A stretch of DNA of 36,003 bases from an uncultured Bacilli bacterium. Its GTDB lineage: Bacteria > Bacillota_I > Bacilli_A > RFN20 > CAG-826. A program made the translations under genes and the position numbers. Below, in pieces: positions 3,599 to 29,991 of this stretch. Location: the NCBI GenBank assembly GCA_905235705.1, contig CAJOML010000004.1, forward strand, positions 1-36,003, in the 5' to 3' direction. Position 1 is the stretch's first letter; every line of letters begins with the position of its first letter. The notes under the pieces are model-generated. The model worked only from the letters and a program-made list of their open reading frames with translations, was not told where the DNA came from and did not search any database.

Positions 3599-3678
3599 GG
3601 CATTATTCTAATAATGTTCTTCTCATTTTGGTAGTCTTTTCACTTGCGTCGTTTTCCTTCTTCCCTACAATTATGGCC

Positions 3679-4131
3679 ATGGTCAAACCCGTATTCACGA
3701 TTGGTCCTAGCGCCGACGCCGTCGCCATACGCATGGAAGTTTTCGTCAAAGAGCAGCACGTCGTCAACGAAATGGATGAATTCGATCCGGCTTCTTGGTC
3801 TTTGGTCCTTTATTTGGATGGCGCTGCGATGGGGACGGGCAGGATATATAAAGTCGATCCTGCCACTTATCAAGTTGGGCGGGTAGCCGTCCTTAAGCCT
3901 TATCGCCATCAAGGAGTGGGCACCTATATCATGAAATTCCTTCAGCGGAAGGCAATTGAGCTTGGGGCTAACGCTTTGTTATTACATGCCCAGGTCGATA
4001 AAATCGGGTTCTATTCCTCCTTAGGATATGTCATCGACGGGGATGGAGAGGTTTTTTATGAGGAAAATATCCCTCATGTGCATATGAAAAAGACCATCGT
4101 CAAAAAGAATCGATATAATAGGAAGCGTTAA
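3679..4131 (+). CDS. GNAT family N-acetyltransferase
   Basis: GRVAVLKPYRHQGVGTYIMKFLQRKA (Q/RxxGxG/A acetyl-CoA motif); the track start (3628) lies upstream of a promoter-like TTGCGT-16-TACAAT, so ATG 3673 or 3679 is preferred. Confidence 0.85.
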   Translation: MVKPVFTIGPSADAVAIRMEVFVKEQHVVNEMDEFDPASWSLVLYLDGAAMGTGRIYKVDPATYQVGRVAVLKPYRHQGVGTYIMKFLQRKAIELGANALLLHAQVDKIGFYSSLGYVIDGDGEVFYEENIPHVHMKKTIVKKNRYNRKR

Positions 4132-4718
4132 TGGAACAAAGCAAAAAGAAAAACATCGAACGCGGGCTTCTAGTGGCCCTCATCCTATTTGCCGCATTAC
4201 TTGGTACGGTAGCCATTTTCGCACGTGGGTTAGATGCAAATCACCAATATGCCAAATATCCGGATTTCCTCGGGCTTATCCCCTTTGCCGTTCCTTTCCC
4301 TATCTTCTTATTGCTTGAGCGTTTCTTTAATAAAGATGGCGATTATGATTTCCCCTGCGTGAGAGGAAATTATCCTAAGGCCCTAAGCCTCGCTTTCTTT
4401 GTCGAGGCGATTGCCTTAATCGGTGGGACCATATTGCTTATTTCCTTCCAAGAAGGAGGATGGTCCGTCTTAAGTTGCGGCATCTTATCCCATGTTGGGT
4501 TGCTTTTCTTCCTCGCCTATATGTTGATCCTAAATATCAAAGATAAGGAAAACCGTAACCGCGAAGATATATTCACCTTGATATTCGCTTTCGCTTTGGC
4601 CTTAAGCGGCTTCATCGTTGGCACTAGCTGCGCCTTTGCCTTAAATATCGGCTGGGGGCTATTCTATGTTTCATCCCCCTTATCGATGCTGACCCTTATT
4701 TTGAAGAAAGGTTTTTAA
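4131..4718 (+). CDS. Multi-pass membrane protein, function unknown
   Basis: 195 aa hydrophobic ORF; its start overlaps the stop of the GNAT gene. Confidence 0.8.
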   Translation: MEQSKKKNIERGLLVALILFAALLGTVAIFARGLDANHQYAKYPDFLGLIPFAVPFPIFLLLERFFNKDGDYDFPCVRGNYPKALSLAFFVEAIALIGGTILLISFQEGGWSVLSCGILSHVGLLFFLAYMLILNIKDKENRNREDIFTLIFAFALALSGFIVGTSCAFALNIGWGLFYVSSPLSMLTLILKKGF

Positions 4719-5307
4719 ACCGTTCCAAAAGATAAAGCAAGGTCAAACGGATATTGATCGGAACGATCCGGTCTTTTTCTTTTAATAAGGATGGGATTGA
4801 AGATAAGGGGTAATAACGGCAGGAAATATCTTCGAAATCTTCGAGCTTGGTTTCCGTTTGCCCCACCACTTCGCATAAAGCAACCGAGACTTCTTCATCG
4901 GATAAGCCTGAGCTAGTCGGAGATGCCGGGGCGATGATTTCGACTTTCCCGATTTTCGCCCCCGCTTCTTCCTCGGCTTCGCGCCTTGCGGCTTCTAGTT
5001 CATCCTCCTCGCCATCGATAAGCCCGGCGGCAAAAGAAGTCGTATAACCCCCTAAAGCCGGCCTGAATTGACTGGTTAAGGCAACTTCGATCTCGCCATC
5101 TTTTTGCCGATATAAGCAAAGCAAGATCCCATCTGGCTTATGATAACTATGCGTTTTTGCCCGCAATTCCCCTTTGCTTTTCCTTGAGGCGAGGAAATAA
5201 GAATAAGGTCTTTTCCCTCTTTCATCCTCGACTTCATAGACAAGGGTAAAGAAATTTAAAAAGGGGTGATTCGTTTCTTGAATGACGTCAACAAGTTTCC
5301 AGTTCAT
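4696..5307 (-). CDS. NUDIX hydrolase (ADP-ribose pyrophosphatase-like)
   Basis: Intact NUDIX box GLIDGEEDELEAARREAEEEAGA; convergent with, and overlapping, the preceding ORF. Confidence 0.88.
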   Translation of the reverse strand: MNWKLVDVIQETNHPFLNFFTLVYEVEDERGKRPYSYFLASRKSKGELRAKTHSYHKPDGILLCLYRQKDGEIEVALTSQFRPALGGYTTSFAAGLIDGEEDELEAARREAEEEAGAKIGKVEIIAPASPTSSGLSDEEVSVALCEVVGQTETKLEDFEDISCRYYPLSSIPSLLKEKDRIVPINIRLTLLYLLERFKNLSSK

Positions 5308-5361
5308 GGAAAGTATTTTATTCCTTTTGCGCTTGCCTGTCTCTTATATTAACATTTGCTC

Positions 5362-5937
5362 ATGTCACTTTACCTTACTCGCCATGGCCAAACCGATTGG
5401 AATAAAAACCAGCTCATCCAAGGACGCATTGATGTGCCCTTAAATGAAGTTGGCCTCGCCGAAGCCAAAGCGCTCGCCCTCACCTTAAAGGACGTTCGTT
5501 TGGATAAGATTATCTCTTCCCCATTGCAGAGGGCTTTAAATACGGCCAAAGCCGTCAATGAATATCATCATCTGGAAATCGAAATCGACAACCGTCTATT
5601 AGAACAATTCTATGGCGACCTAGAAGGCACCCCTAGAAGCGGTCCTATCTATCTTCACAAGCGGCAATCCATCGCTGCAAGATATCCTAACGGGGAAGGC
5701 TATTTCGATGTCGTCCACCGCATCTACTCCTTACTGGATGAAATCAAAGCCAAATATCGCGATAAAAACGTCCTTCTTGTCGCCCATGGAGGGATATCGC
5801 GCGTCATCAGGTCTTATTTCCAAGGATTTGAAAACGAGGATTTCGCCACTTTCGGCATCCCTAACTGCGGTCTTTTGAAATTTGAATTCGTCGACCGTGA
5901 TTTCCCCACCATCGTCCCTCAGGCTAAAACCGAATGA
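5362..5937 (+). CDS. Histidine phosphatase family protein (phosphoglycerate mutase-like)
   Basis: LYLTRHGQTDWNKNQLIQGRIDVPLNEVG (RHG motif) and VLLVAHGGISRVI. Confidence 0.92.
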   Translation: MSLYLTRHGQTDWNKNQLIQGRIDVPLNEVGLAEAKALALTLKDVRLDKIISSPLQRALNTAKAVNEYHHLEIEIDNRLLEQFYGDLEGTPRSGPIYLHKRQSIAARYPNGEGYFDVVHRIYSLLDEIKAKYRDKNVLLVAHGGISRVIRSYFQGFENEDFATFGIPNCGLLKFEFVDRDFPTIVPQAKTE

Positions 5938-6455
5938 ATGTAATCTAACTGGGCTATTAGCCTAGCTTTGCCTGAAGCTGAAGAAACAAATTGGCGATAT
6001 TTTCCAAATTCGTTTTTGGCAAGGGGAGTGCTTAAGCCCAAGCCTTCTTCTAGTCCTTCCTTAACTTCATAAAAAATGAAAGATATGGGGCGAAGGATAA
6101 GACTTGGCTTTTCGATTTGTTTCTCGTGATAAAGATAATATCCGAATAAGCCAAATAAAATATCCGCGTATGGGGCAAGTTTCATCATATCTTGATCCTC
6201 AGGATCATAGCCCATTAAGGGATAGCCATTCCCATCGATATCGATAAATTCGCGTTTGCTTGATAAAGAAAACAAGCAGTTTAGATAGCCGCTTAATTCC
6301 TCATCGTCAAAAGACCCAAGGTCAGGCAAATTCATTCCCGCAAGCAAAGAGGCATCTTTGGCGTTTTCTTCGCTAGCCAAGGCAAATACGGCAAAAGAAA
6401 GAGCGATATCGTGGATAAAGGAAGGATTTAAATTAACGGAAGGATTCTCATTCAT
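5919..6455 (-). CDS. Hypothetical protein
   Basis: Start placed at the MNENPS ATG (6455) because TATGAT lies exactly 6 nt upstream; the track ORF extends to 6503 through a terminator-like hairpin. Confidence 0.65.
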   Translation of the reverse strand: MNENPSVNLNPSFIHDIALSFAVFALASEENAKDASLLAGMNLPDLGSFDDEELSGYLNCLFSLSSKREFIDIDGNGYPLMGYDPEDQDMMKLAPYADILFGLFGYYLYHEKQIEKPSLILRPISFIFYEVKEGLEEGLGLSTPLAKNEFGKYRQFVSSASGKARLIAQLDYIHSVLA

Positions 6456-6468
6456 GGCTAAATCATAT

Positions 6469-6511
6469 AAAAAAGCCCCGAGATGGTTAAGGGGTAAGAC
6501 CATCTCAGAGC
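6469..6511 (-). terminator. Intrinsic terminator-like hairpin (minus strand)
   Basis: Minus strand GCTCTGAGATGGT-CTTACCCCTTA-ACCATCTCGGGGC-TTTTTT: 13-bp stem with two G-U pairs, 11-nt loop, U6 tract. Confidence 0.75.
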
Positions 6512-6720
6512 CCGTTAATTGTTACCGCAAAAGGCTTTTTTTGCAATCAAAAAATAGCGAAAAGTTTCGATAAAATCGGCATTTTTAGAAACTTAGAGGA
6601 AACCTAACATTTTTGAAAGAAGCAAAAATATCAAAAAATATCGAATTTATCTAAACGCGATTGGAAACTCTACGTTTATTTAGGGGGAAACTAAGCAATC
6701 TTAAAAAAGATAAGTAATTT

Positions 6721-7620
6721 TTAAAAATCTGGAATAAAATCTTCCAAATTCCCTTCTTTGTCATACTTCACGACCATATGAAAGGGCTTTTTCCGTTCTT
6801 GATCGAGTAAAGGAAGGAAGCGTTTGTCCCCTTCCCACATCGGCAATTCATTTAGTTTTTCTTTCTCAATCCAGGCCAGTTCACCTTCGTTACAAGGGAT
6901 TAGTTCCCCGGAAAAGGAAGTCACTTTAAATAAGAACATCCTTTCCCCGGGGTGGTCTTGGTTAATAAAGTCGATCTTCCCAAAATAAGAATATTCTTCA
7001 ACATCTAATCCGGTCTCTTCCTGGATTTCCCTTTTGAAGGCATGGATATAGCTTTCCTTACCCTCTAAATGACCGCCGACACCGATCCACTTCCCTTCGT
7101 TTTCGTCATTTTTCTTTTTATTACGGAAAATCATCAAATAGCAGCCATCTTTTTCAATATAGGCTAGTGTCGTCTTAACGGTGATGGCTTGGCATTTTTC
7201 CAGAACTTGCCTGCGATAATTCAGGGCCTCTTCGACTTTATCCGCGCAGGAGAGGATATCGCCTTCAAGCTCTTTTCCCCAAAACCGCAGGACTTTATAC
7301 CCTTGTTCGGCAAGAGTTTGGTTCACGAGTTTATCCCTAGCGATATTTCGTTTGATTTTCTCCACCCAAAAAGGGCGGTTGGAATGGAATATGGCGCTAG
7401 CTTCATCGAAATTATAGCCATGCCAAAATTCGGAATCGCAGAAAACGGCTACCTTCTCTTTTTGGAAAAGGATATTGGGGTGGCCAAAGGCCCTTTTTGA
7501 ATTGATTTGATAATGGATCCCTCGCCTCGTCAATTCCTTGCGAAGAGATAATTCTAGCCCCGTGTTCTTGCCTTTAATCGCGGCCATGGTTTTGTGAATG
7601 GTTTGCGGATCTCTTTTCAT
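6721..7620 (-). CDS. Fusion: N-terminal Vsr-like (very short patch repair) endonuclease domain plus C-terminal MutT/MutX-like NUDIX (8-oxo-dGTP diphosphatase type)
   Basis: MAAIKGKNTGLELSLRKEL...GHPNILF...VAVFCDSEFWHG...FWVEKIKRNIARDKLVNQTLAEQGYKVLRFW (Vsr), then TLAYIEKDGCYLMIFRNKKKNDENEGKWIGVGGHLEGKESYIHAFKREIQEETGL (complete NUDIX box). Confidence 0.9.
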   Translation of the reverse strand: MKRDPQTIHKTMAAIKGKNTGLELSLRKELTRRGIHYQINSKRAFGHPNILFQKEKVAVFCDSEFWHGYNFDEASAIFHSNRPFWVEKIKRNIARDKLVNQTLAEQGYKVLRFWGKELEGDILSCADKVEEALNYRRQVLEKCQAITVKTTLAYIEKDGCYLMIFRNKKKNDENEGKWIGVGGHLEGKESYIHAFKREIQEETGLDVEEYSYFGKIDFINQDHPGERMFLFKVTSFSGELIPCNEGELAWIEKEKLNELPMWEGDKRFLPLLDQERKKPFHMVVKYDKEGNLEDFIPDF

Positions 7621-7686
7621 CTTCGGATAGGGTAAAACCGAAAAAGGGCTATTTCAATCATTTCATTTTCGGATTAGTCTTTTCCC

Positions 7687-8244
7687 ATGAGCAAAATCTT
7701 GCATGCCAAAGCTAGCGACTTGCCTTCTCTAAATAAATGCTTTCGCCGCGTCCAAGGGGACATGGAAGAGAAAGGACTAGATCTTGAAATCGAGGAATCT
7801 CTTTTTGAAAAAGAAATCGAAGAAGGTCACCTTTATGTCGTCAAGGAAGGGATCCGTGTCATCGGGGCGGCTTTGGTAAGTTTTGTTGTCGAAGATGTTT
7901 TCTTCCCCCAAAGCAAAAGTCAACGCAAAGTCGTTTCTCTCCTTGATGAATTCGACTATCAAGATGAAGGGATTCTTATTTTAACCCAATTCTTTATTGA
8001 CCCCGCCTATCAACATCAAGGGGTTGGATCAATGTTATTAGAAGCCTTATCTTCCGCCTTTAAAGGCTATAGCATCCTTTTATATTTAAACAAGGAAAAC
8101 CACCCCGCGATTTCTTTCTTCCAAAAGCACGGATTCGCCAATTACGGCAATCAGTTTGAGTTTGAAATTGAAGGCAAAGAAAACATCGATTTCTTTGCAA
8201 AAAAGCCAAAAAAAGATGGACTTTGCCGAAATATAGGTTGGTAA
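7687..8244 (+). CDS. GNAT family N-acetyltransferase
   Basis: FFIDPAYQHQGVGSMLLEAL...NHPAISFFQKHGF. Confidence 0.87.
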   Translation: MSKILHAKASDLPSLNKCFRRVQGDMEEKGLDLEIEESLFEKEIEEGHLYVVKEGIRVIGAALVSFVVEDVFFPQSKSQRKVVSLLDEFDYQDEGILILTQFFIDPAYQHQGVGSMLLEALSSAFKGYSILLYLNKENHPAISFFQKHGFANYGNQFEFEIEGKENIDFFAKKPKKDGLCRNIGW

Positions 8245-9963
8245 TTAAACAAATTGAGAATGATAAAGTTTGGCGAAGAAGCCATCTTTTTCCATTAACG
8301 ATTTGAAGTTTCCGGCTTCGATGATTTTGCCCTTATCCATGACCAAAATCTTATCCGCCCCGACGATGGTGGAAAGACGGTGAGCAACGACGACCGAAGT
8401 CTTTCCTTTTAGCAAAGTATCAAAGCCACCTGACAAAGCGATTTCGGTGCGGAGGTCAATATTAGAGGTCGCTTCATCAAGGAGCACAAATTCAGGCTTG
8501 CAAACCAAAATCCGGGCCAAACAAATTAGTTGTCGCTCACCGCTAGAAAGACTTAATGAAGAGACCTGGGTATCTAATCCTTTGGGCAAGCGCTTAATCA
8601 AATTGTCCGCTTTCGCCTTAACACAGGCTTCTAAGATTTCTTCTTCGGTCGCATCTTCTTTTCCGAAGGCGATATTTTCCCCAATCGTGCCATCAAAAAG
8701 GACACTTTGTTGTAAGACCATCCCGATATGTTCACGTAAAGAGGTTTTCCGATATTGAGGAATCGCTTTCTCATTCACTTCAATCGCCCCGCTTTGAGGA
8801 TCATAAAAACGCATCAAGAGATTGATTATGGTCGTCTTGCCGCAACCCGTTGTCCCAACCAAGGCCACGCGTTCGCCTTTCTCGATTCTAAAATGGATCC
8901 CATTTAAAACGACGCGGCCAGGATCATAGCCAAAGACAATGTTTTTCCCTTCAACGGAATCGATTCCCCTTGGTAATTCTAATTCGCCGCCGATGTCATC
9001 GCTTTCTTCCGTCATCACCTTTTGATAACGGTCAAAAGAGGCAAAGGCGAATAAGATATCTCCCGAAGCATCGGCGATTTCATTAAAAGGCGCCATATAT
9101 TGATAGCAATAAGTTAAGAAAGAAGATAAAAAACCAACCGTGAATGCCTTGCCTAAAAAAGCAGGTTGATGATAAAGGAGCAAGCATCCGGCGATGACCA
9201 CCGCTCCATAAATCATATTATTCACTAAACGCGAGGAAGGATTAATCCAAGCCGCGGCAAAGGTGGCTTTAAACTGGGCTTTCCTGACTTCTACCCCTTT
9301 TTCTTTAAACCGTTCCAGGCGGCTTTTACTTAAACCATAGGATTGGATGGTCTCGATATTGGCTAAGCTTTCCATCCCATAAGCGGATAGTTCTGCCAAA
9401 GCAGCATTTTGCTTTCTAAAGGAAGAGGAATTGGCTTTCGAAATAAAGTTAGAAACGATGATGGAAAGAGGGGTCAAAACAATCACAATCAAAGCAAGCA
9501 GCCAATTTAGATATAGCATCAAGCCAACGGTGATGGCGATTTGCATGACGCCCTCAAAGAAAGCGGCAGCCCCGGAGACAAAACCAGTGCGAATATTATC
9601 GATATCATTGGTGAATAATAGCAGCATGTCCCCTTCTTTTTTCTGGTCAAAAGTCGAAACAGGGGCATGGACCAATTTATGATAAAGCTCTTTTCTCATT
9701 GAGGAGATGATGGCTTCTCCAGTGATTGAGACTAAATAATCGAAGAAGAATCTCGCAAATGAACCGATGCCAATTAAAACCCCAATTAAGACGAGGTAAT
9801 TGGTTAAATTCATATTGCCGGCGCGGATTTGATCAAGGCTAATCCCAACAATATAAGGGATGGCTAATTTTGCCCCTACCGCAGCAAGGGCGCAGACCAA
9901 AGCTAGGACCACCAGGTAGCGGCGCGACCGAAGATATCCAAAAACCGAAATAATGCGTTTCAT
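8245..9963 (-). CDS. ABC transporter, permease-ATPase (exporter half-transporter)
   Basis: Six-TM domain plus Walker A GTTGCGKTT, signature LSSGERQ, Walker B FVLLDEATS, H-loop VAHRLST. Confidence 0.95.
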   Translation of the reverse strand: MKRIISVFGYLRSRRYLVVLALVCALAAVGAKLAIPYIVGISLDQIRAGNMNLTNYLVLIGVLIGIGSFARFFFDYLVSITGEAIISSMRKELYHKLVHAPVSTFDQKKEGDMLLLFTNDIDNIRTGFVSGAAAFFEGVMQIAITVGLMLYLNWLLALIVIVLTPLSIIVSNFISKANSSSFRKQNAALAELSAYGMESLANIETIQSYGLSKSRLERFKEKGVEVRKAQFKATFAAAWINPSSRLVNNMIYGAVVIAGCLLLYHQPAFLGKAFTVGFLSSFLTYCYQYMAPFNEIADASGDILFAFASFDRYQKVMTEESDDIGGELELPRGIDSVEGKNIVFGYDPGRVVLNGIHFRIEKGERVALVGTTGCGKTTIINLLMRFYDPQSGAIEVNEKAIPQYRKTSLREHIGMVLQQSVLFDGTIGENIAFGKEDATEEEILEACVKAKADNLIKRLPKGLDTQVSSLSLSSGERQLICLARILVCKPEFVLLDEATSNIDLRTEIALSGGFDTLLKGKTSVVVAHRLSTIVGADKILVMDKGKIIEAGNFKSLMEKDGFFAKLYHSQFV

Positions 9964-11684: not shown

Positions 11685-13015
11685 TCTTCGCCTTCTTCCT
11701 CATCTTCTTCGTTTTGGAAAGTAATAATCATAACGGGGTCGAGATTGCATTCTTTGACGAAAACCCAAGTCCCATCTATCGGAGTGAAAATCCTTGTAAA
11801 AGTCTCTCCGTCATGCCCTTGGAAGGCCGAAATCCCCGTAAATCTCCAATGAGTTTTGCCATTTAATACCCCGCAAGTTAAGGACCCGATATCGACAAAA
11901 AGCATCGGGGCGCTGAATTCAAGTTCCATATCTAATTCATGGCTGGAAGGGTCGAATTCGGAATGGACGAGGCGAATCGGGTGAAGGGCATCGCTAGCGT
12001 CGATTAAGGTATCGTAGAAGGTGAATTGGTCGAGGACATAATCGCCCTTCTTGTAATTCTTTTCCTTAGCAATGACGGAAATGCGGCGGAAGATCTCTTC
12101 CGATATCTCTTTGTTTCTTTCCGACAAAGAATCGCTTTCTTTGCTGAGGGCAAAAGAAGCCATCAATAAGAAACGAAGGGCGCGGTCTAAATTAATCTCC
12201 GCCCCCACACCATCTTGGAAGCAGACGGCGATGCGGTAGCAATAATTGATAAAGACGTTGATACTTTCTTGCCCCGAAAGGAAGCCTTCATAGACATCGA
12301 TGAAATTGGTTAGAAGCAAATTGAGTCCGAATTCTGGATCTTTGGGACAGGCGACACCAAATAGGTAGCACTGGGCAAAGAAGAACGCCCCTTCCATCGA
12401 ACCTAACGCCGAGGCTTTGGCATAGCATTCATAAGCCTGGGCGTCGGTTTCTTGGCTAGGAGGCATGCTAAAATATAAAGTGCCTAAATTCACCAAAGCC
12501 TCAGGATTGCATTTTAAGGCAGGTGAAGAAAGGATTTTGATGGCTTTGGAGGTGTTCTTCCTTCCAAAATGGCCGCCATCTTGATAATAAGAAGCCAAGG
12601 CAATCATGGCTTTCTCATCGCCATTATCGGCTAAGGTTTGCAGATAAGTGACGGCGAGCTTTTCGTTTTTTTGGTTATGGGTGATTTTGCCTCCGAAATA
12701 ACGATCAAGGTAAACCTGGGCGGCTTCGGGATGGGTGGCGATATAATCCGGTCCAAAATAAGCGAGGTTCATTTCTTTTAAGAAAACCTTATCTTCAACT
12801 GGTAGTCCGCTTGCATCGCCAATGACCGCCGGCATGCCGCATTCTGGGCAAAGGGCTTGGCTATGTCCTGCCGAATTATCCCAATCGTTGACTTCGCGAG
12901 CCGAGAAATGGGAACGGCAGAAAAAACATCCGCAGACAGAGGAAGAAAGAATTTCGATTTCATTGTCTAAACAATGGGAATGGGCTTTTTCTAATTCTTC
13001 GGGTTGGTAACTCAT
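11681..13015 (-). CDS. Cys-rich zinc-ribbon-like N-terminal domain plus Sel1-like repeats plus C-terminal domain of unknown function
   Basis: N-terminus HCLDNEIEILSSSVCGCFFCRSHF...ALCPECGMPAVIGDASG; repeats such as NGDEKAMIALASYYQDGGHFG and SALGSMEGAFFFAQCYLFGVACPKD; 4-bp overlap with the ABC gene. Confidence 0.8.
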   Translation of the reverse strand: MSYQPEELEKAHSHCLDNEIEILSSSVCGCFFCRSHFSAREVNDWDNSAGHSQALCPECGMPAVIGDASGLPVEDKVFLKEMNLAYFGPDYIATHPEAAQVYLDRYFGGKITHNQKNEKLAVTYLQTLADNGDEKAMIALASYYQDGGHFGRKNTSKAIKILSSPALKCNPEALVNLGTLYFSMPPSQETDAQAYECYAKASALGSMEGAFFFAQCYLFGVACPKDPEFGLNLLLTNFIDVYEGFLSGQESINVFINYCYRIAVCFQDGVGAEINLDRALRFLLMASFALSKESDSLSERNKEISEEIFRRISVIAKEKNYKKGDYVLDQFTFYDTLIDASDALHPIRLVHSEFDPSSHELDMELEFSAPMLFVDIGSLTCGVLNGKTHWRFTGISAFQGHDGETFTRIFTPIDGTWVFVKECNLDPVMIITFQNEEDEEEGEE

Positions 13016-13102
13016 GGTTGCTATCTTATCATATAAGATATCCGTTTTGTTAATCTAACGCTTATAAAAGGTCTTTTCGCCTGCTCTAAAAATAAAAAGG
13101 TT

Positions 13103-13120: not shown

Positions 13121-13171
13121 GGCAAAGCAAATTCTCTTTTTCTTTGGAGGCGAGGGTAAGATAATAAACCC

Positions 13172-14179
13172 ATGAAAATCCTTCTTGACGCTCTGGGCGG
13201 GGATAAGGCTCCCGCTTCCACCATTGCCGGTGCGATTGAAGCCTTAAATACACGTAAAGATTTAGAAATCGTTTTAGCTGGTCCTGAAGCCATTCTTCGC
13301 CCGATGCTAGAAAAAGGGAAAGCCCCGATGGATAGGGTATCTTTTCTTGAAGCTAAGCAAGCTGTCTTAAATACCGATCATCCTTCTGTCTTCCTTAAGG
13401 AAAAACCCGATTCTTCTTTGGCTGTCGCCTTTGAAACGTTACGGAAAGACGATTCTTTTGCCGCGATGGTTTCAGCTGGACCAACCGGCGCATTATTAAC
13501 CGGCACCGTCCTCCGCATCGGACGAATCCAAGGGGTCCTTCGCCCCGGTCTATTAGCCGTTGTCCCTACCCGCACCGGCAAGGTTTGTCATCTGGTTGAC
13601 GTGGGGGCGAATATGGACTGCAAACCCGAATATTTATATCAATTTGCCGTCATGGCCGATGCTTATCTTCGTTTAAGCGGGCTTGCTTCTCCCCGCATCG
13701 CCACTTTGTCTGTCGGCATGGAAGAAGGAAAGGGGAACGAATTATCCAAAGCCGCCTATGAACTAATCAAAGCCAACCCCAAACTCAATTTCGTCGGCAA
13801 CATCGAAGGCGATCACGTCCTCCGTGGCGAAGCCGACATCGTCATCTGCGATGGCTTTTCCGGGAACGTGTTCTTAAAATCGCTTGAAGAAGGGGCTTAT
13901 TTCATCGCCGATTTATTTCAAGCGGCGATTAAGAAAAATATCATCACCAAATTCGGCGCTTTATTCCAACTCCGTCATCTAAAGAAAGTCAAAGAACCTT
14001 TCAATTATGCATCGAAAGCATCTTCGCCTCTGCTTGGCGCCAAAAAGATTGTTTTGAAGTGTCATGGCAAAGCCGACGGTGAGACCCTTGCCGCCGCCAT
14101 CTTGAAAGGGTGCGAATTAAAAGAAAAAGGGCTTCTCGAACAAATCGGAGAAACCCTCAAAGGGCAAGAACAAGACTAA
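13172..14179 (+). CDS. plsX: Phosphate acyltransferase PlsX
   Basis: MKILLDALGGDKAPASTIAGAIEAL...SAGPTGALLTG...VDVGANMDCKPEYLYQFAVM...GNIEGDHVLRGEADIVICDGFSGNVFLKSLEE. Confidence 0.96.
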   Translation: MKILLDALGGDKAPASTIAGAIEALNTRKDLEIVLAGPEAILRPMLEKGKAPMDRVSFLEAKQAVLNTDHPSVFLKEKPDSSLAVAFETLRKDDSFAAMVSAGPTGALLTGTVLRIGRIQGVLRPGLLAVVPTRTGKVCHLVDVGANMDCKPEYLYQFAVMADAYLRLSGLASPRIATLSVGMEEGKGNELSKAAYELIKANPKLNFVGNIEGDHVLRGEADIVICDGFSGNVFLKSLEEGAYFIADLFQAAIKKNIITKFGALFQLRHLKKVKEPFNYASKASSPLLGAKKIVLKCHGKADGETLAAAILKGCELKEKGLLEQIGETLKGQEQD

Positions 14180-14835
14180 TATAGAGGCGTATCGACCGCT
14201 TTACGGGTCAATTGCCAAATCATTAACGCGCCGGGGAATATGGGGGCGGCTTTGCTTAAACCCATAATCGATAAAACCCAAGGGGAAAATTCTTGTCCTA
14301 ACGCAAGAACGGCGATGCTAAAGGGAACCTGCAATAGGAAAAACAGGTTGCCGATAAACATAAACCAACGCCAACGGACGGCTTTTCGTCCTTGCTCTTC
14401 AACTAGCATTGCCAAAGCAAAGAAGATAACGGCAAGGAAAGAAAATACCAAAGAGAAACCTTCCATTAATAAGATGGTCGATTCCTCTTTATTCGTCCAA
14501 GAGCCGCCGACAATATCAGGCAGCATAAAAGAGTTTGGGATAAACATCGATAAAGAGGCGACAAGGCAGCAAAAATTCAAATTCCTTCTTAATCGCGTCG
14601 GATCGTAATGATGTTTTACCATCGAGACGACGAATAATATCAATAGAAGCGAAAGGGAGAGCTCAACGAAAGAAGAGCCAGCCTCTAGTTCCAAAATCGG
14701 GCGGGTCACATAAGACATAATCAGAGTAAAAGTAGCAACCGCGATATGGGTAAAATCAAACAAAGTAAAACCGAGCAAGGCGATTGAAGCCTCTTTGGAG
14801 GTGGATGACTTAGGACTTTCAGGTAAATTTTCCAT
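14176..14835 (-). CDS. Multi-pass membrane protein, function unknown
   Basis: Start MENLPES at 14835 supported by TACAAT 6 nt upstream; hydrophobic helices throughout. Confidence 0.75.
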   Translation of the reverse strand: MENLPESPKSSTSKEASIALLGFTLFDFTHIAVATFTLIMSYVTRPILELEAGSSFVELSLSLLLILFVVSMVKHHYDPTRLRRNLNFCCLVASLSMFIPNSFMLPDIVGGSWTNKEESTILLMEGFSLVFSFLAVIFFALAMLVEEQGRKAVRWRWFMFIGNLFFLLQVPFSIAVLALGQEFSPWVLSIMGLSKAAPIFPGALMIWQLTRKAVDTPLY

Positions 14836-14897
14836 GGCAAGATTGTAGCCCATGACGAAAAAAGGATAAATCTTTTTTTCGGACAACCTGGAATTGC

Positions 14898-21218: not shown

Positions 21219-21228
21219 AATGATGATT

Positions 21229-21264: not shown

Positions 21265-21374
21265 TTCAATCGGAAAACCGAATTATTGCTTCAAGTTTTT
21301 CATTTTTCTTAATTGGACTGGGATAGCCAAGAAAAAAGAGGCGACAAGCCCCCTCTATCTTTGCTTGAGAAAAT

Positions 21375-22415
21375 TTATTTTATGGGTGGCAGGAAGAAGT
21401 TCCCGTAAACTTGATGTAATTCAGTGACGATAACAAAGGCCTTGGGGTCGGCGTTTTGCACGACTTTAACGGCATGCTTTACTTCGTAACGGGAGACGAT
21501 GACATTGAAAATAAACTTTTCGGCCCCGGTAAAAGCCCCTTCGCCTTTAATCAAAGTGGCGCCATGAGGAAGATTGGCGATGATGATTTTCCCAAGGTCA
21601 GGATTAGAAGAAACCACTTCTAGTTTCATCTTCTTATTACGTAAGTTGATAACGTTGATGACAAGCATCGTCATGATCATATAGACGACGGAGAATAAAG
21701 AAGCGGTAAAGGCGTGGGCCCCTTCCACCGTCCCCCAGCCAGCTTCAGTGATGGCAAGAAGGGTATAGGTGGTGACGGTTATGATATTGATATAGACGGA
21801 ATAGCGTCCGACAAGGGTCGATTTCTTTAATGAAATATAGTAGGCGATAACGTCAATTCCCCCCGCCGAGGCGTTGGCTTTATAGGCAATCGCGCTGGAA
21901 ACGCCAGTGCAGACGCCGGCAAATAAAGCACGGGTAATTAAACCCCCATTTTGATTGCAAAACTCAGCGATTTTGAACAAAAACGCCTCATCTGCATAGC
22001 CTAGAATATAGTTAAATACGGAAGCCATACCGACATTAATCGCGGTCAAAATGGCGAAGCGCTTCCCTATCCCTTTCCACGCTAAGATAAAGATTGGGAT
22101 ATTTAATCCAAAATATAAAATCGAATAAGTAAGGTCATATAGGTGATTACCGGTGACGGCTTTATTTCCGATAAGGTCAATTAACAGGATAATGGTCTGG
22201 GCGATACCGGAGACGCCACCGCTAATCAAACGATGGCCATCCGCCATTTGCTCCAAATTGCCCGGGGCGATAAATGCCTTAAAGCCAAAGGCAAATAAGA
22301 AAGCGGAGAAGATGACGACAATCGCACCTATGCCATGATGGACCGTTCCTTTCAATAAGGGGTGATCATAAAGAAGGTTTTCGATTTTGGTCGAAAGGCT
22401 TTTTCTTTTTAACAT
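21375..22415 (-). CDS. YitT family membrane protein (with DUF2179-type C-terminal domain)
   Basis: GHRLISGGVSGIAQ, SAIAYKANASAGGIDVIAYYISLKKS and C-terminal VVSRYEVKHAVKVVQNADPKAFVIVTELHQVYGNF. Confidence 0.9.
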   Translation of the reverse strand: MLKRKSLSTKIENLLYDHPLLKGTVHHGIGAIVVIFSAFLFAFGFKAFIAPGNLEQMADGHRLISGGVSGIAQTIILLIDLIGNKAVTGNHLYDLTYSILYFGLNIPIFILAWKGIGKRFAILTAINVGMASVFNYILGYADEAFLFKIAEFCNQNGGLITRALFAGVCTGVSSAIAYKANASAGGIDVIAYYISLKKSTLVGRYSVYINIITVTTYTLLAITEAGWGTVEGAHAFTASLFSVVYMIMTMLVINVINLRNKKMKLEVVSSNPDLGKIIIANLPHGATLIKGEGAFTGAEKFIFNVIVSRYEVKHAVKVVQNADPKAFVIVTELHQVYGNFFLPPIK

Positions 22416-22465
22416 AGCCCAAATTATAGGCGTTGCCCTAAAGAAGGGAAGAGAGAAAGCGATTT

Positions 22466-22480
22466 CTTCCCTAGGGGAAG
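22466..22480. repeat. Near-palindrome in the yitT-like / thioredoxin-like divergent region
   Basis: CTTCCCTAGGGGAAG. Confidence 0.5.
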
Positions 22481-22501
22481 GCGAAAAATGAGATTTTCTT
22501 T

Positions 22502-22516
22502 CTTACCTTAGGTAAG
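22502..22516. repeat. Palindrome in the same divergent region, 6 bp upstream of a -35 element
   Basis: CTTACC-TTA-GGTAAG. Confidence 0.55.
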
Positions 22517-22522
22517 TGTTTG

Positions 22523-22551
22523 TTGATTACCAAAGTTGACGATGATATGAT
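22523..22551 (+). promoter_or_regulatory. Sigma-A-like promoter for the thioredoxin-like gene
   Basis: TTGATT-17-TATGAT. Confidence 0.5.
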
Positions 22552-22590
22552 TTTACCGCTGTTTAAGCAGGCCCTTTTGGAGGCATCAGT

Positions 22591-23541: not shown

Positions 23542-23546
23542 CAAAG

Positions 23547-23566
23547 ACGGCCATATGGCCGTTTTT
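23547..23566 (+). terminator. Intrinsic terminator
   Basis: ACGGCC-ATAT-GGCCGT-TTTT. Confidence 0.75.
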
Positions 23567-23580
23567 GATAGGAGAAGCTT

Positions 23581-24138
23581 ATGCAAAATATCATCGCCAC
23601 TATCCCTGGTAAACTTCGCATCGAGACTTATGTTAAAGGCAATCACGTCGATCCTAGCGTAAAGCCGGTTGATTTCTTTTTCGGCCAAGAACGTTTTCCT
23701 TTGGCCATCGAAACCCATGATGAAGTCCCCTGCTTCTTTATCCATAAGGATGGGTATTTCGGGGCGATTAAAGTATCTAAAGAGGATGCCGTAAGCGATA
23801 AAATCATCAATTGCCTCGGCCAAGCCTTAAAAGACAATGGCTTACACGGTGAAGACTTAGAAGTCATCATGGGGCCTAGTTTAGGCTTCTCTCATACTCC
23901 CGTCGAAAGCGAAGAATTGGAAGCCGCCTTACCCAAATACCGGGGCGCATGCAAAATCACCTCGGGAGTCAATTATTTGGATATCCCTTTAATGTGCCTC
24001 CTCCAGTTCCGTGCCCTCGGCGTCCATTTGGCCAATATCCATTGCAGCGATTACGATACTTTCGAAAATCCTAGCCTCCTATATTCCAAAACCAGAGGTG
24101 AGGAAGAAGAAAACGTGACCTTGGCCACGCTTCTATAA
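23581..24138 (+). CDS. Divergent PgeF/YfiH (laccase-domain, DUF152)-like protein
   Basis: Ordered similarity to family motifs: DLEVIMGPSLGFSHTPV, YLDIPLMCLLQFRALGVHLANIHCSDYDTFENPSLLYSKTRGEEEE; HAGWRG region not conserved. Confidence 0.55.
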   Translation: MQNIIATIPGKLRIETYVKGNHVDPSVKPVDFFFGQERFPLAIETHDEVPCFFIHKDGYFGAIKVSKEDAVSDKIINCLGQALKDNGLHGEDLEVIMGPSLGFSHTPVESEELEAALPKYRGACKITSGVNYLDIPLMCLLQFRALGVHLANIHCSDYDTFENPSLLYSKTRGEEEENVTLATLL

Positions 24139-24161
24139 TCTTATTTATATATAAGGAAGGA

Positions 24162-24629
24162 TCACTTATCGTAGGCTTCGTTAACGATGGGTGGAACTAA
24201 CGGGGAAATATCAGCCCCGTTTTTCTTTAATTCATTGATGGTTGAAGAGGAAATAAAGGAGGACCCTTCTTCCGCCATGAAGAAGACCATATCGATATCT
24301 TTCGAAAGATAACGGTTAGCCGCGGCGAGTTGGAATTCATATTCGAAATCGGTGACCGCGCGAAGGCCACGGATAATATGTTTGGCTCCCACTTTCCGGC
24401 AATATTCAATCGTTAATCCTTCGGTAAAATCGACTTCGACATTAGGGAATCCTTTAGCGACCTCTTTCATAAAGGAAAGCCGTTGCTCGATGGAAAAGGC
24501 GCTTTTCTTATTGGGATTGACGGCTAAAAGCAGAATGACTTTATCAAAGAGGGAAACGCTTCTTCTTAAGATGCCGATATGTCCGTTGGTAATGGGATCG
24601 AAGCTTCCTGGATAGACGCCAATTTTCAT
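24162..24629 (-). CDS. coaD: Pantetheine-phosphate adenylyltransferase
   Basis: MKIGVYPGSFDPITNGHIGILRRS and HIIRGLRAVTDFEYEFQLAAANR. Confidence 0.97.
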   Translation of the reverse strand: MKIGVYPGSFDPITNGHIGILRRSVSLFDKVILLLAVNPNKKSAFSIEQRLSFMKEVAKGFPNVEVDFTEGLTIEYCRKVGAKHIIRGLRAVTDFEYEFQLAAANRYLSKDIDMVFFMAEEGSSFISSSTINELKKNGADISPLVPPIVNEAYDK

Positions 24630-25171
24630 AAGGATTTCCTCGCAATCAAGACTTTTGTCTTGCCATAAGTATATTCTTTTACTTTCGCAAATGCAGTGAC
24701 ATCGACGGAAATCCCGCCTTCATATTCAAATACAATCGCCCCATTTTCTTTTAAAAGGCCGTTATTCAAAAGCAGTAAAAGCGATTCTTGATAAGCCTCT
24801 TTTAAGGCATAAGGAGGATCAAGGAAAACGATATCAAAAGCAGGGAGCAATCCTTTTTGGTTTAAATAAGCGAGATAGTCTTGGTTAGAGACGATGCCAT
24901 TATTTTCTTTTAATGTTTCCAAATTCTTTTTAACTAGCTTCGCCGTCATAACGTTCGCGTCATTAAAATAGCAAGAAGAGGCGCCACGCGATAAACATTC
25001 GATTCCCAGTGCCCCACTTCCAGCAAATAAATCCAAAACAGTCGCTCCCGGAATCAAATCCGAAAGGGCTGACATAATGGCTTCCCTGACTCTGTTTTTG
25101 GTTGGCTCGGTTCCTTCTTCTGGGGTAAGGAGATTACGGGAACGATATTTGCCGGCGATGACCTTAATCAT
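24626..25171 (-). CDS. rsmD: 16S rRNA (guanine966-N2)-methyltransferase RsmD
   Basis: MIKVIAGKYRSRNL, VREAIMSAL, VLDLFAGSGALGIECLSRGA, FDIVFLDPPY. Confidence 0.95.
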   Translation of the reverse strand: MIKVIAGKYRSRNLLTPEEGTEPTKNRVREAIMSALSDLIPGATVLDLFAGSGALGIECLSRGASSCYFNDANVMTAKLVKKNLETLKENNGIVSNQDYLAYLNQKGLLPAFDIVFLDPPYALKEAYQESLLLLLNNGLLKENGAIVFEYEGGISVDVTAFAKVKEYTYGKTKVLIARKSL

Positions 25172-25526
25172 GCTTGCACCGTACCCTTTCTTTAAACGCT
25201 GAGAAGATCGCGTCATCGATTTGATAAAACAGCGAATTCACAGCGACAAAGCATTCTTGATACGCCTTGACCAGAGGATGGGAATCGAGGTTTTTCTTTG
25301 CCGTAAATAAGGCTTTTCTGGCTTTGATTTCTTCAGGTGAATTTTCCTTAAAAAACCTGCAAACTTCATAATATTCATCGTTTTTACGGCTTTTTTCGCT
25401 AGCTAAAAAGGAGACTTCCTCACTGCTTTCCATTTCTTTTTCAGCCTTAGTTAAAGATTTGATACGGGGGTCGGAATTAATCGCTTTGATGAATTCGCGA
25501 ATGGCTTGGTCGAGTTTGCTGTCCAT
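25164..25526 (-). CDS. YlbF/YmcA family protein
   Basis: Small helical protein with the family-like arrangement (F..AI..DPRIK.L..AE..M); overlaps rsmD. Confidence 0.6.
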   Translation of the reverse strand: MDSKLDQAIREFIKAINSDPRIKSLTKAEKEMESSEEVSFLASEKSRKNDEYYEVCRFFKENSPEEIKARKALFTAKKNLDSHPLVKAYQECFVAVNSLFYQIDDAIFSAFKERVRCKHD

Positions 25527-25571
25527 GCGAAAATCTTACACCCTCTCGCCCTTCGGTGCTACAATCTCAAC

Positions 25572-26123
25572 ATGTTAAAAATCGTCAAAGACAATATGCC
25601 CTCCCTTCGGCTCCGTTCCCAGGAAGTTCCGATGCCTTTATCCAAGGAGCACAAAGAACTTATCGACGAGATGCTTAAATACCTTCTTCTCTCCCAAGAC
25701 GAGAATTACCGTCGCAAGCATCCTAACGTCAGGGAAGGGGTTGGCCTAGCCGCCCCTCAAGTCGGCCATAATTTAAGAATGCTAGTCATCTCTTATCCTA
25801 ACGGAGACGAGGAAAACGCCATCACCCAATATCAACTCGTCAATCCCAAAATCGTCGTTAACTCGGTTAAGAAATGCTATCTCCGTGGCGGGGAAGGATG
25901 TTTATCCGTCGATGATCCCCATCCCGGCATCGTCCACCGCGACTATAAAATCGTGGTTAAAGCCTTCGATGCCGCCAAGATGGAAGACGTCACCATCACC
26001 GCAAGAGGATATGATGCGATTGTCCTCCAGCACGAAATCGACCACCTTAACGGCGTCCTCTTCTACGATCATATCGATAAAGTTAATCCCAATACCCCCC
26101 TTCCGGGAGAAGTTGAGATCTGA
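25572..26123 (+). CDS. def: Peptide deformylase
   Basis: EGVGLAAPQVG, GGEGCLSV, LQHEIDHLNGVLFYDH; ATG 25572 preceded by TACAAT at 6 nt. Confidence 0.96.
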   Translation: MLKIVKDNMPSLRLRSQEVPMPLSKEHKELIDEMLKYLLLSQDENYRRKHPNVREGVGLAAPQVGHNLRMLVISYPNGDEENAITQYQLVNPKIVVNSVKKCYLRGGEGCLSVDDPHPGIVHRDYKIVVKAFDAAKMEDVTITARGYDAIVLQHEIDHLNGVLFYDHIDKVNPNTPLPGEVEI

Positions 26124-26125
26124 TA

Positions 26126-26148
26126 AAAGCGGTTTCCCCCGCTTTTTC
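26126..26148 (+). terminator. Intrinsic terminator
   Basis: AAAGCGG-TTTCCC-CCGCTTTTTC. Confidence 0.75.
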
Positions 26149-26159
26149 TTTGAAAACTC

Positions 26160-26187
26160 TTGTTTGAGCCGAGAATTTTGGTATATT
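26160..26187 (+). promoter_or_regulatory. Possible promoter for RNase J
   Basis: TTGTTT-16-TATATT. Confidence 0.4.
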
Positions 26188-26237
26188 GATATCAACAAGC
26201 CACTCCATATCAAGGAATTCGCTTTATTAATACGAAG

Positions 26238-27902
26238 ATGAGTACCTATTCTCCTGTCAACATTTACGCTTTAGGCGGTCTTGGCGAAGTCGGCAAGAAC
26301 ACCTATTGTTTTGAAACGCTCAACAATCTCATCATGGTTGATGCCGGTGTGCGTTTCCCCGAAGCCAACCTTCCCGGTGTCAATTATGTCATCCCGGATT
26401 ATTCCCATTTAAAGACGAACCGCGGAAAAATCAGGGCTTTATTTATCACCCATGGCCATGAAGACCATATCGGTGGCATCCCTTTCTTGCTTAGAATCGC
26501 AAATATCCCGGTAATTTATGCACCGAGGTTAGCGGCAGCTTTAATCCGCCATAAATTAGAAGAAGCCAGGTTCTATGAGGCGGTCAAGATCATCGAAATC
26601 GACAGCGATTCCATCATTCGTATCGGTGATGAATTCACCGTCTCCTTCTTCCGCGTCACCCACTCCATCCCCGATTCATATGGAGTTTGTATCGATACCC
26701 ATCATGGACGTATCATCGAAACCGGTGACTTTAAAATCGACCTTACTCCCGTTGGACCAAAATTCGAAATGGATAAGCTTGCCCGCTTAGGAAGCGAAGG
26801 CGTTGATTTGCTGATGGCCGATTCGACCAACGCCGAAATCGAAGGTTATACCCCTTCTGAAATCAATGTCCGCGCCGGTGTCGAAGAGATCTTTGAGAAA
26901 GCCCCCGGACGAATCATCGTCTCCACTTTCTCCAGCAACATCAACCGTATCCAGCAAGTCGTCGAAATCGCTTTGGCGAATAACCGCAAAATCTGCATCA
27001 TGGGACGTTCCATGAAAAACGTCATTGGCATTGCCCGTGAATATGGTTATATCAAAATTCCCGATAACGCGATTATCGATGAATCCAATCTTAAAAACTA
27101 TCGTCCTTTGGAACTTTGCATTATTTGCACCGGTTCGCAAGGTGAATCGATGGCTGCCCTTTCCCGTATCGTGAATGGCGACAACCGCTTTACTTCCATC
27201 TATCCTGGCGATACCGTCATTTTCTCCTCTAACCCGATTCCCGGAAACGGGGCATTGGTCGACCGCTTAGTCAATAAACTCGTCAAAATGAGGGCGGACG
27301 TGAAGTTAAATTCATTAGCCTTCTCCCTCCACTCCTCTGGTCACCCTTCCCGTCAGGAACTACGTTTGATGCAGCGCCTTGCCCAGCCGAAATATTTCAT
27401 GCCGGTCCATGGCGAATACCGTATGTTGAAGCTCCATGGTGACATTGCCATTCAACTTGGCATGCCAAAAGAAAATGTCTTTATCTGCGATAATGGCGAC
27501 ATCCTTACTCTCGAAGACCATAAGATTACCCGTGGCATCCACCTCCCTGCCGGTGACGTTTATCTTGATGGAGGAGATTCATTAGGCGGAGTCGCCTCGG
27601 TCTTAATGAATGATAGGACCATCCTAAAAAGCGATGGCCTCATCGTCATCGTCACGACCTTAGACAAAAAGAACAACTACATCGTTCCCCCTATCGTCTA
27701 TACCCGTGGCTTTGCCGCTTCCGAACAAGCTCATGTCGTCAGGCATTGCAAACTCCGTGCCGAAGAAAGCATCCAAAAATGCATCACTTCCGGAGTTGGC
27801 TTAAACGAAATGAAAAACGAAATCAGGTCTTCCATTTCCCGTTATACCGATCGGCTCACCGGGCGCAAACCGATGGTCGTTCCCATCATCATGGTCAACT
27901 AA
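26238..27902 (+). CDS. rnj: Ribonuclease J
   Basis: ALGGLGEVGKNTYCFE, FITHGHEDHIGGIP, DSTNAEIEGYTPSE, CTGSQGESMAALSRI, MPVHGEYRML. Confidence 0.96.
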   Translation: MSTYSPVNIYALGGLGEVGKNTYCFETLNNLIMVDAGVRFPEANLPGVNYVIPDYSHLKTNRGKIRALFITHGHEDHIGGIPFLLRIANIPVIYAPRLAAALIRHKLEEARFYEAVKIIEIDSDSIIRIGDEFTVSFFRVTHSIPDSYGVCIDTHHGRIIETGDFKIDLTPVGPKFEMDKLARLGSEGVDLLMADSTNAEIEGYTPSEINVRAGVEEIFEKAPGRIIVSTFSSNINRIQQVVEIALANNRKICIMGRSMKNVIGIAREYGYIKIPDNAIIDESNLKNYRPLELCIICTGSQGESMAALSRIVNGDNRFTSIYPGDTVIFSSNPIPGNGALVDRLVNKLVKMRADVKLNSLAFSLHSSGHPSRQELRLMQRLAQPKYFMPVHGEYRMLKLHGDIAIQLGMPKENVFICDNGDILTLEDHKITRGIHLPAGDVYLDGGDSLGGVASVLMNDRTILKSDGLIVIVTTLDKKNNYIVPPIVYTRGFAASEQAHVVRHCKLRAEESIQKCITSGVGLNEMKNEIRSSISRYTDRLTGRKPMVVPIIMVN

Positions 27903-27903
27903 T

Positions 27904-28449
27904 ATGTTTATCCTCGCTTCAGCCTCGCCTAGGCGTAAAGAATTGCTTCATAAACTCCTTCCCGAATTTTCGATTATCGTCCCGGATATCGATGAACGTA
28001 TCCTCCACCTTGATCCAAAAGACCTTGCAAGCGAGGAAAGTAAGCACAAAGCCTATGCCATCTATTCCAAATATCCCCGCGATGAAGTTCTTTCTTGCGA
28101 CACCATCGTTGTCCTAGATGGCGAAGTATTAGGCAAGCCCAAAGATGAAGAAGAAGCAAAAGCAATGCTCCGCCTTGAATCGGGGAAAAAGCAAATCGTT
28201 TTAAGCGGATATACCTATATTGGCGAAGGACGTGAAATCACCCGCACCGTCGCCACCGAAGTCTATTTCAACGAACTGTCCGAAGAATTAATCGAAGACT
28301 ATGTGGCAAAGAAAAAGCCCCTCGACAAAGCGGGAGCTTATGGGATCCAAGATGGCTATCCTTTGATCAAGCGAATCGAAGGAAGCTACGATAACGTCAT
28401 GGGTTTGCCCACCGAAGATATCGCTGCTCACGTCTTTAGGACTCGCTAG
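27904..28449 (+). CDS. maf: Maf family nucleotide pyrophosphatase
   Basis: MFILASASPRRKELLHKL, SCDTIVVLDGEVLGKPKDEEEAKAMLRLESGKKQIVLSGY, GAYGIQDGYPLI. Confidence 0.96.
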   Translation: MFILASASPRRKELLHKLLPEFSIIVPDIDERILHLDPKDLASEESKHKAYAIYSKYPRDEVLSCDTIVVLDGEVLGKPKDEEEAKAMLRLESGKKQIVLSGYTYIGEGREITRTVATEVYFNELSEELIEDYVAKKKPLDKAGAYGIQDGYPLIKRIEGSYDNVMGLPTEDIAAHVFRTR

Positions 28450-28807
28450 AACCGAATAATACCTTTTCCACTTCCTCTGCATCGCCCTTGATGACTAAGG
28501 TAAGACGATCGGACATCTTAATGAAGCCGTCAACCCCGGCTTCTTTTAATTTCTCTTTGTCCAAAGCCTCATAATCGACAAGTTTTAATTCGATGCGGGA
28601 ACCTTTACGGACATGCGAAATCAGATTCGCTTCACCGCCAAGGGCTTCCATGTAGGCGCTTTTGGAAACGACGCGGGCCGGCTTTTTCTTGGCTTTTTTC
28701 TTTTGGCGAAAGATAAGCAAGAAGATAATTACGCCAACCACAATGACGGCGGCGACGCTCCCTGCGATGATGTAGGGGAGAAAAGAAGATAAACTTTCGT
28801 TTGGCAT
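28436..28807 (-). CDS. Single-TM protein with a PTS EIIB(Glc-like) fold domain lacking the phosphorylatable Cys
   Basis: YIIAGSVAAVIVVGVIIFLLIF TM, basic linker, then YMEALGGEANLISHVRKGSRIELKLVDYEALDKEKLKEAGVDGFIKMSDRLTLVIKGDAEEVEKVL. Confidence 0.65.
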   Translation of the reverse strand: MPNESLSSFLPYIIAGSVAAVIVVGVIIFLLIFRQKKKAKKKPARVVSKSAYMEALGGEANLISHVRKGSRIELKLVDYEALDKEKLKEAGVDGFIKMSDRLTLVIKGDAEEVEKVLFGSSES

Positions 28808-28841
28808 ATCGTTTATAATACACCTAATCGGAGGCAAATGT

Positions 28842-29414
28842 ATGTCAAACGCCATTGAAATTGAAGCCAAAGTCCTTGTTTCGCAAGATGATTACCGTAA
28901 AATCACGAAGGAATTCCGCAGCCATCCCCGCTATACCCAAACAAATTATTACATCGATTCGGAAGACCGCATCCTCACCAAAGAAGGAATTGCCCTCCGT
29001 ATCCGCGAAAAGCAAGGGACCTATGAATTGACCTTGAAGACCCCTCTTTCCCAAGGGCTACTTGAGAAGAACGTTCCCATCACGATGAACGAATTCGTCG
29101 CGTTAAGGGATGATGATGAATTCCCTAAAGGCGATACGGCCAGATTCCTCACCATGCTTGATATCGACGTGAAGAGCCTCCGCATTCTCACCTCCTTATC
29201 CACCGAACGAATCGACGTCGAATATGAAGGCGGCCTCCTCTCCATCGATAGGAATACTTATTGCGGCAAAACCGATTACGAAATCGAATTCGAATACAAT
29301 AGCCTTAACGGGGCCGAAAAAATCCTTTCCGATCTCCTTCAAAGATTTGATATCCCTGTCCACTTCTCCAAAGTCTCCAAGACGCATCGCGCCATGGAAG
29401 CGGCTGGAAAATAG
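28842..29414 (+). CDS. CYTH domain protein (YjbK-like)
   Basis: IEIEAKVLV (ExExK), TNYYIDSEDRILTKEGIALRIREKQGTYELTLK, DYEIEFEY; SD GGAGGCAAATGT-ATG. Confidence 0.9.
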   Translation: MSNAIEIEAKVLVSQDDYRKITKEFRSHPRYTQTNYYIDSEDRILTKEGIALRIREKQGTYELTLKTPLSQGLLEKNVPITMNEFVALRDDDEFPKGDTARFLTMLDIDVKSLRILTSLSTERIDVEYEGGLLSIDRNTYCGKTDYEIEFEYNSLNGAEKILSDLLQRFDIPVHFSKVSKTHRAMEAAGK

Positions 29415-29425
29415 CCTCACTTATA

Positions 29426-29462
29426 TCAAAAGATGGACCCACGTGGCCCATCTTTTTTATTT
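29426..29462. terminator. Bidirectional terminator between convergent genes
   Basis: AAAAGATGG-ACCCACGTGG-CCCATCTTTTTT. Confidence 0.75.
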
Positions 29463-29469
29463 CTCAAAG

Positions 29470-29901
29470 TCAATGAATCTCTTCGGGAGTATGCTCGCAT
29501 GTCCCATACATCGGACAATCGTTGGTGCAATTTTCGGCGGCATAACGTCTAGCCCGCGGGATGAAGGTACGGATTTCTTCTTCGTTATAGCCGACTTGGA
29601 GACGCCGATCATCAACGATGATGGGTCGTTTCAAAATGGAGGGGTTCTTTAAGATGAAATCGCAAAGTTCGGAGATTGTCATCTCATCAAAATCGATATT
29701 GTTTTCCATCACGATTTTCGATCTGGTGGAAATGATGTCATCTGTGCCATTCTCGCTTTTGGAAATCATCTCTTTGATTTCTTCTTTTGTGAAATCGGGC
29801 GAAAAAATAGATTTAGCGATATAGGGAATGCCGTTTTCGTCAAACCACTTTTTCACTTTCCGGCAAGATGAACAACTGGGTGAAGTGTATATCCTAATCA
29901 T
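29470..29901 (-). CDS. spx: Spx/ArsC family transcriptional regulator (Spx-like)
   Basis: MIRIYTSPSCSSCRKVKKWFDENGIPY (CxxC), ILKRPIIVDDRRLQVGYNEEEIRTFIPR; ATG 29901 preceded by TATCAT at 6 nt. Confidence 0.88.
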   Translation of the reverse strand: MIRIYTSPSCSSCRKVKKWFDENGIPYIAKSIFSPDFTKEEIKEMISKSENGTDDIISTRSKIVMENNIDFDEMTISELCDFILKNPSILKRPIIVDDRRLQVGYNEEEIRTFIPRARRYAAENCTNDCPMYGTCEHTPEEIH

Positions 29902-29991
29902 GGGCTTATGATACATTTCTTTGTTAAACAAAGATACAAAAATAGTGAAAAATGAAGATATCGTGCTATCATCTCCCGTGAGGACTAAACT

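Follow-up and report, generated by a model that had tools for sequence, protein, structure and literature searches.

Leaderless transcription has been predicted in 21.6% of bacterial species, with up to 40% of the transcripts in a single genome (PMC9581028). Within the Firmicutes, 56 of 209 genomes were predicted by Zheng 2011 to have leaderless genes, mainly those of Lactobacillales and Mycoplasma, at a mean of 4.2% and a maximum of 16.6% of genes (PMC3160421). Leaderless mRNAs have been mapped in streptococci, where they amount to 8.6% in S. pyogenes and 9% in S. agalactiae and S. pneumoniae (PMC6431027), and a few cases are known from Mollicutes, namely nine transcripts in M. gallisepticum (PMC4245973) and nine genes in Mesoplasma florum (PMC7745072). 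Here we analyzed a stretch of 36,003 nucleotides (nt; "the window") on contig 4 of the 1.26-Mb, 77% complete genome of an uncultured Bacilli bacterium (GCA_905235705.1), in which hexamers resembling the −10 box TATAAT recur 6 or 7 nt before start codons. The sequence patterns argue strongly for leaderless and near-leaderless transcription beside ordinary Shine-Dalgarno (SD) initiation, and the mRNAs of roughly one in four genes that come first in their transcription unit (unit-first genes) probably begin at, or 2–3 bases before, the first codon.

Given the predictions of Zheng 2011, the streptococcal maps (~9%) and the few Mollicutes genes, this is not a new mode, and the statement in a preliminary description of the window that leaderless mRNAs are not the textbook mode for Bacillota has to be amended, since they had already been predicted and mapped in this phylum. 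As in the TA-like class of Zheng 2011, a −10-like signal is found genome-wide at a fixed short distance, ~10 bp before the starts, it belongs to first or single genes, SD sites are absent there and SD is used elsewhere; unlike that class, near-ATG −10 genes reach ~13% of the sampled genes by hard call (47/357), the lineage lies outside the Lactobacillales and Mycoplasma, and a distinct class with 2–3-nt leaders is predicted. With the streptococci the genome shares its phylum, transcript starts at or very near the start codon and conservation in related species, but the starts were mapped by experiment there and are predicted from sequence here, and the estimated, model-dependent unit-first share is higher (~26%, including 2–3-nt leaders). 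The Mollicutes likewise have small genomes and a TAWAAT −10, with a −35 that is degenerate or lacking, but in a handful of genes only. Mycobacterium tuberculosis and others also mix leadered and leaderless transcripts within a genome, but belong to other phyla and reach higher shares. In the literature searched we found no report of a leaderless mode in this little-studied lineage of gut and rumen Bacilli, which is not proof of absence.

Near-ATG hexamers and SD sites

All ten hexamers listed in the preliminary description were found, each matching TATAAT in at least 5/6 positions at a spacing of 6 or 7 nt, but the one before 28807(−) is doubtful and should not be counted, because it shares positions with the conserved −10 of the divergent gene at 28842(+), which has an SD, and is almost its complement, and because orthologues lack that start. 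The claim that the hexamers exceed chance expectation at these fixed spacings held: ten at spacings 6 and 7 over 36 gene starts compare with 0.30 per spacing on average over the control spacings 10–59 (Poisson P ~1e-9), and P is still ~1.4e-8 when the start is free to be any ATG within 66 nt. Five of the ten listed starts (3679, 6455, 14835, 28807 and 29901) are not the 5′-most ATG of their open reading frame (ORF), and the one at 29901 is backed by orthologues. The weaker 4/6 cases are partly supported, in that the −10 of 25526(−) recurs in orthologues (see below).

As the window is where the pattern was first spotted, a fairer test comes from the rest of the genome, and the genome-wide scan for a hexamer peak near start codons that had been suggested was run on ~426 kb of this genome, made up of the window and 20 further stretches. 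This sample holds 357 genes with a known upstream neighbor, 188 unit-first and 169 operon-internal; the hexamer criterion was the same, and the 5′-most ATG was taken as the start, chosen blind to the signal. A peak appeared at exactly 6 nt, where 22 of 188 unit-first genes carry the hexamer compared with ~2.3 per other spacing (P ~6e-15), and counts were also raised at spacings 7, 8 and 9 (7, 8 and 7 genes). Only 5/169 operon-internal genes have it at spacing 6 (first versus internal, P = 0.002), and the 0.8% seen at internal ATGs equals background. When the upstream neighbor lies on the opposite strand, 19 of 94 genes have a hexamer at 6–7 nt versus 2.6 expected. The peak is thus mostly limited to unit-first genes, as expected of the leaderless class of Zheng 2011.

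The suggestion that the genome uses two initiation modes was borne out, as a near-ATG −10 almost excludes an SD: SD sites occur in 2/43 unit-first genes with a −10 at 6–9 nt and in 65/145 other unit-first genes (P = 2e-7), and overall the SD fraction is 0.62 in operon-internal and 0.36 in unit-first genes. A mixture model with three classes (background, −10 and SD), in which the −10 spacing was free from 0 to 20 under a uniform initial prior, converged on TATAAT and placed 82% of the spacing mass at 6–9 (0.45 at 6, 0.10 at 7, 0.14 at 8 and 0.13 at 9). The −10 and SD classes received weights of 0.32 and 0.37 in unit-first genes and of 0.04 and 0.57 in operon-internal genes, and the −10 weight at internal ATGs was 0. 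By the model, ~26% of unit-first genes fall at spacings 6–9, and the hard call at spacings 5–9 gives 47/188. An exact anti-SD was found in 21 of 57 family genomes, and a search for the 16S 3′ end in the metagenome-assembled genome (MAG) under study gave none that was recognizable.

Anatomy of the putative promoters, conservation and translation

The surroundings of the hexamers show features of primary-sigma-factor promoters, a weak −35 at a 17-nt spacer only and a clear purine ~7 nt after the −10. At the spacing-6 sites of this genome T is favored at −35 and −34 and position −1 is C or T; similarity to TTGACA peaks only at the 17-nt spacer (mean match 2.42, compared with 1.66 at control hexamers), and the TG extension is enriched roughly fivefold over control hexamers (15% versus 3%). 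In initiator-register counts that take in family loci, so that orthologues repeat, a pyrimidine stands at −1 in 98% of 104 spacing-6 sites, while the seventh base after the −10 is G in 64% at spacing 8 (GU-AUG starts) and a purine in 90% at spacing 9. The base 7 nt after the −10 thus behaves like a +1, being the A of the ATG at spacing 6, G at 8 and a purine at 9. Since the purine keeps register with the −10 and not with the ATG, spacings 8–9 look like a second class with 2–3-nt leaders, which the preliminary description had missed. At spacing 7 the seventh base is mostly not a purine, so transcription more likely starts on the A of the ATG, 8 nt after the −10.

In five families the near-ATG −10 recurs in orthologues, which mostly lack an SD: it was found at 5–10 nt in 43/46 orthologues of Def, 36/40 of the ArsC/Spx family protein (Spx), 21/25 of YlbF (SD in 0/25), 18/26 of YitT (SD in 1/26) and 25/32 of the RluA-like protein. 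SD sites are mostly retained in orthologues of CYTH, PGM, CoaD, 22591(+) and ProRS; for CYTH (28842+), an SD is present in 34/41 and a −10 at 14–30 nt in 33/41. Upstream of def a TANAAT-like core is conserved, in many cases together with the TG extension, while its spacer to the ATG varies from 6 to 10 nt among orthologues. The divergent starts of ylbF and def (25526–25572) are 45 bp apart, and both promoters would therefore share one short intergenic stretch, with a near-ATG −10 on both strands that recurs in orthologues.

In the proposed mechanism, the hexamers would be the −10 boxes of primary-sigma-factor promoters, with transcription predicted to start on the A of the ATG at spacings 6–7 and on a purine 2–3 nt before the ATG at spacings 8–9. 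Such mRNAs would have no leader or almost none, and their 5′-terminal AUG may, as in known cases of leaderless translation, be recognized directly by the ribosome, while operon-internal genes and many other unit-first genes would use SD sites. Each of the 24 family genomes sampled encodes IF3, and 19 of them encode bS21. No protein in these 24 genomes exceeded the rpsA cut-off, and a canonical multi-domain ribosomal protein S1 thus went undetected under a threshold that is strict, as only 2 of 14 named control genomes pass it. The S1-domain matches were mostly single-domain, in frames of ~700–770 amino acids (aa; the size of PNPase or RNase R), ~550 aa or ~130 aa. From what is known in E. coli, absence of bS1 would fit leaderless translation, although the negative result for S1 needs care.

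Alternative readings and distribution in relatives

The hexamer might instead act in translation, as an A/T-rich or Kozak-like element close to the start codon of the kind described in Bacteroidota. It does lie close to the ATG and takes the place of the SD, and Kozak-like elements near start codons are reported in Flavobacterium, which is without SD (PMC6847099). We regard this as very unlikely, as the spacing differs from 6 to 9 nt among orthologues while TANAAT stays conserved, the −35 register, TG extension and purine register obey promoter rules, and operon-internal genes, which need translation too, rarely carry the hexamer. Real promoters followed by translation from a downstream ATG, with ordinary leaders and misassigned starts, are highly improbable. 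This reading gains from the uncertain start choice at some genes, half of the ten listed starts not being 5′-most; however, Def matches Pfam from its first residue onward and the alignment of Spx orthologues runs from residue 1 to a cysteine motif ~ten residues in, so that these start codons are set by homology and a longer leader from the same promoter has no room, and a downstream start would leave both the −1 pyrimidine and the peak at exactly 6 nt without reason. That AT-rich upstream DNA and freedom in start choice produced the pattern by chance, as might be thought from AT-rich relatives in which TATAAT-like hexamers are common near starts, such as one with 26% GC (G042) that has no peak over background, is practically negligible in view of P values of ~1e-8 in the window with free starts and 6e-15 for the genome sample with starts fixed beforehand, and of a peak in a relative with 61% GC (G169; 9/111 genes versus 0.48, P = 2e-9), where chance TATAAT is rare.

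Some observations weigh against the reading as leaderless and near-leaderless transcription. The 26% share is model-dependent, with a strict-threshold excess at spacing 6 of ~10% of unit-first genes; the −35 signal is weak; the gene calls are simple longest ORFs with ATG starts only, on MAG contigs; some sampled members of the family, such as G042, show no excess over background; and at any single gene, extra upstream promoters may yield leadered mRNAs.

By its RNase J the source genome sits next to a goat-rumen Bacilli MAG (L001; 86% identity) and falls into a supported group with Ca. Alloenteromonas (NCBI taxonomy: Bacillota incertae sedis). A class-wide count of the pattern TANAAT-N5-Y-ATG against a spacing-14 control sets the source genome (58 versus 10), its genus-mate G052 (31 versus 9) and G099 from another family of the class (121 versus 20) apart from most of the class; as this count is blunt in AT-rich genomes, gene-level profiles were used instead. 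These showed peaks in G052, G170 (the genome of L001), G169 and G099, the last with a spacing-6 hexamer in 10/101 unit-first genes, a weak peak in G030 of the same order, and none in G042, G045, G072 or Erysipelotrichales loci. On the genomes sampled the trait is patchy, and the high background of AT-rich genomes could hide it.

A shift to 2–4-nt leaders in the Ca. Alloenteromonas clade is not claimed. The RNase J neighborhood gave 2 sites at spacings 6–7 and 22 at 8–10, but with repeated orthologues, and the effect was weak in wider samples (4 versus 10 in G167, 29 versus 17 in the source genome, P = 0.03) and not seen in G168. In that MAG, contig C1 (L158–L168) has 34% GC and locus L012 has 52% GC, so the MAG may be chimeric.

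Window features and meaning for the lineage

The hexamers of the window are collected in Table 1.

Table 1 Positions of −10-like hexamers in the window and their distance to the start codon.
Feature	Position	Strand	Context
−10 TAGAAT	3605..3610	−	6 nt before ATG at 3598
−10 TACAAT	3666..3671	+	7 nt before ATG at 3679 (GNAT acetyltransferase)
−10 TAAAAT	5315..5320	−	7 nt before ATG at 5307 (NUDIX)
−10 TATGAT	6462..6467	−	6 nt before ATG at 6455; candidate start, not 5′-most
−10 GATAAT	13160..13165	+	6 nt before ATG at 13172 (PlsX-like protein of the FA_synthesis family; Pfam match from residue 1)
−10 TACAAT	14842..14847	−	6 nt before ATG at 14835
−10 TATAAT	22423..22428	−	7 nt before ATG at 22415 (YitT family)
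−10 TACAAT with TG extension (TGCTACAAT)	25560..25565	+	6 nt before ATG at 25572 (peptide deformylase, Def)
−10 TAAGAT (4/6)	25533..25538	−	6 nt before ATG at 25526 (YlbF)
−10 TATCAT	29908..29913	−	6 nt before ATG at 29901 (ArsC/Spx family)
−10 TATACT	34476..34481	−	8 nt before ATG at 34467 (RluA-like pseudouridine synthase); putative near-leaderless class; absent from the earlier list
Weak −10 TAAGAT (4/6)	13023..13028	−	7 nt before ATG at 13015
Weak −10 TAACAT (4/6)	5350..5355	+	6 nt before ATG at 5362
Doubtful TATTAT	28815..28820	−	7 nt before ATG at 28807
Contrast TATAAT	28814..28819	+	22 nt before ATG at 28842 (CYTH); SD is GGAGG

In the divergent pair 28807–28842 the −10 sequences of both strands overlap and are nearly self-complementary. 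The gene content of the window is otherwise ordinary housekeeping, with two observations to add. A single ORF at 6721–7620 (−) matches the Vsr mismatch endonuclease (residues 4–71) and NUDIX (161–272), an unusual pairing that may reflect either a genuine fusion or an error of gene calling. In the region 35036–35799, an ORF with an EndoU-type nuclease domain (35347–35799, −) precedes a small ORF that has an SD and starts at 35344, a layout recalling that of a toxin and its immunity protein.

We put forward tentatively, with the balance slightly the other way, the fuller picture of a lineage in which at least a quarter of unit-first genes are leaderless or have 2–3-nt leaders, in two discrete registers, with no canonical S1 detected and with leaders that drift between 0 and 2–3 nt among orthologues. 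Orthologous genes whose leaders apparently vary from 0 to 3 nt could serve to study the evolution of leaderless initiation, and the near-ATG −10 genes bear on annotation, as start prediction that expects an SD is unreliable for them. A mostly uncultured lineage from gut and rumen would join those bacteria in which leaderless and SD initiation occur side by side, in a phylum with SD as the textbook mode.

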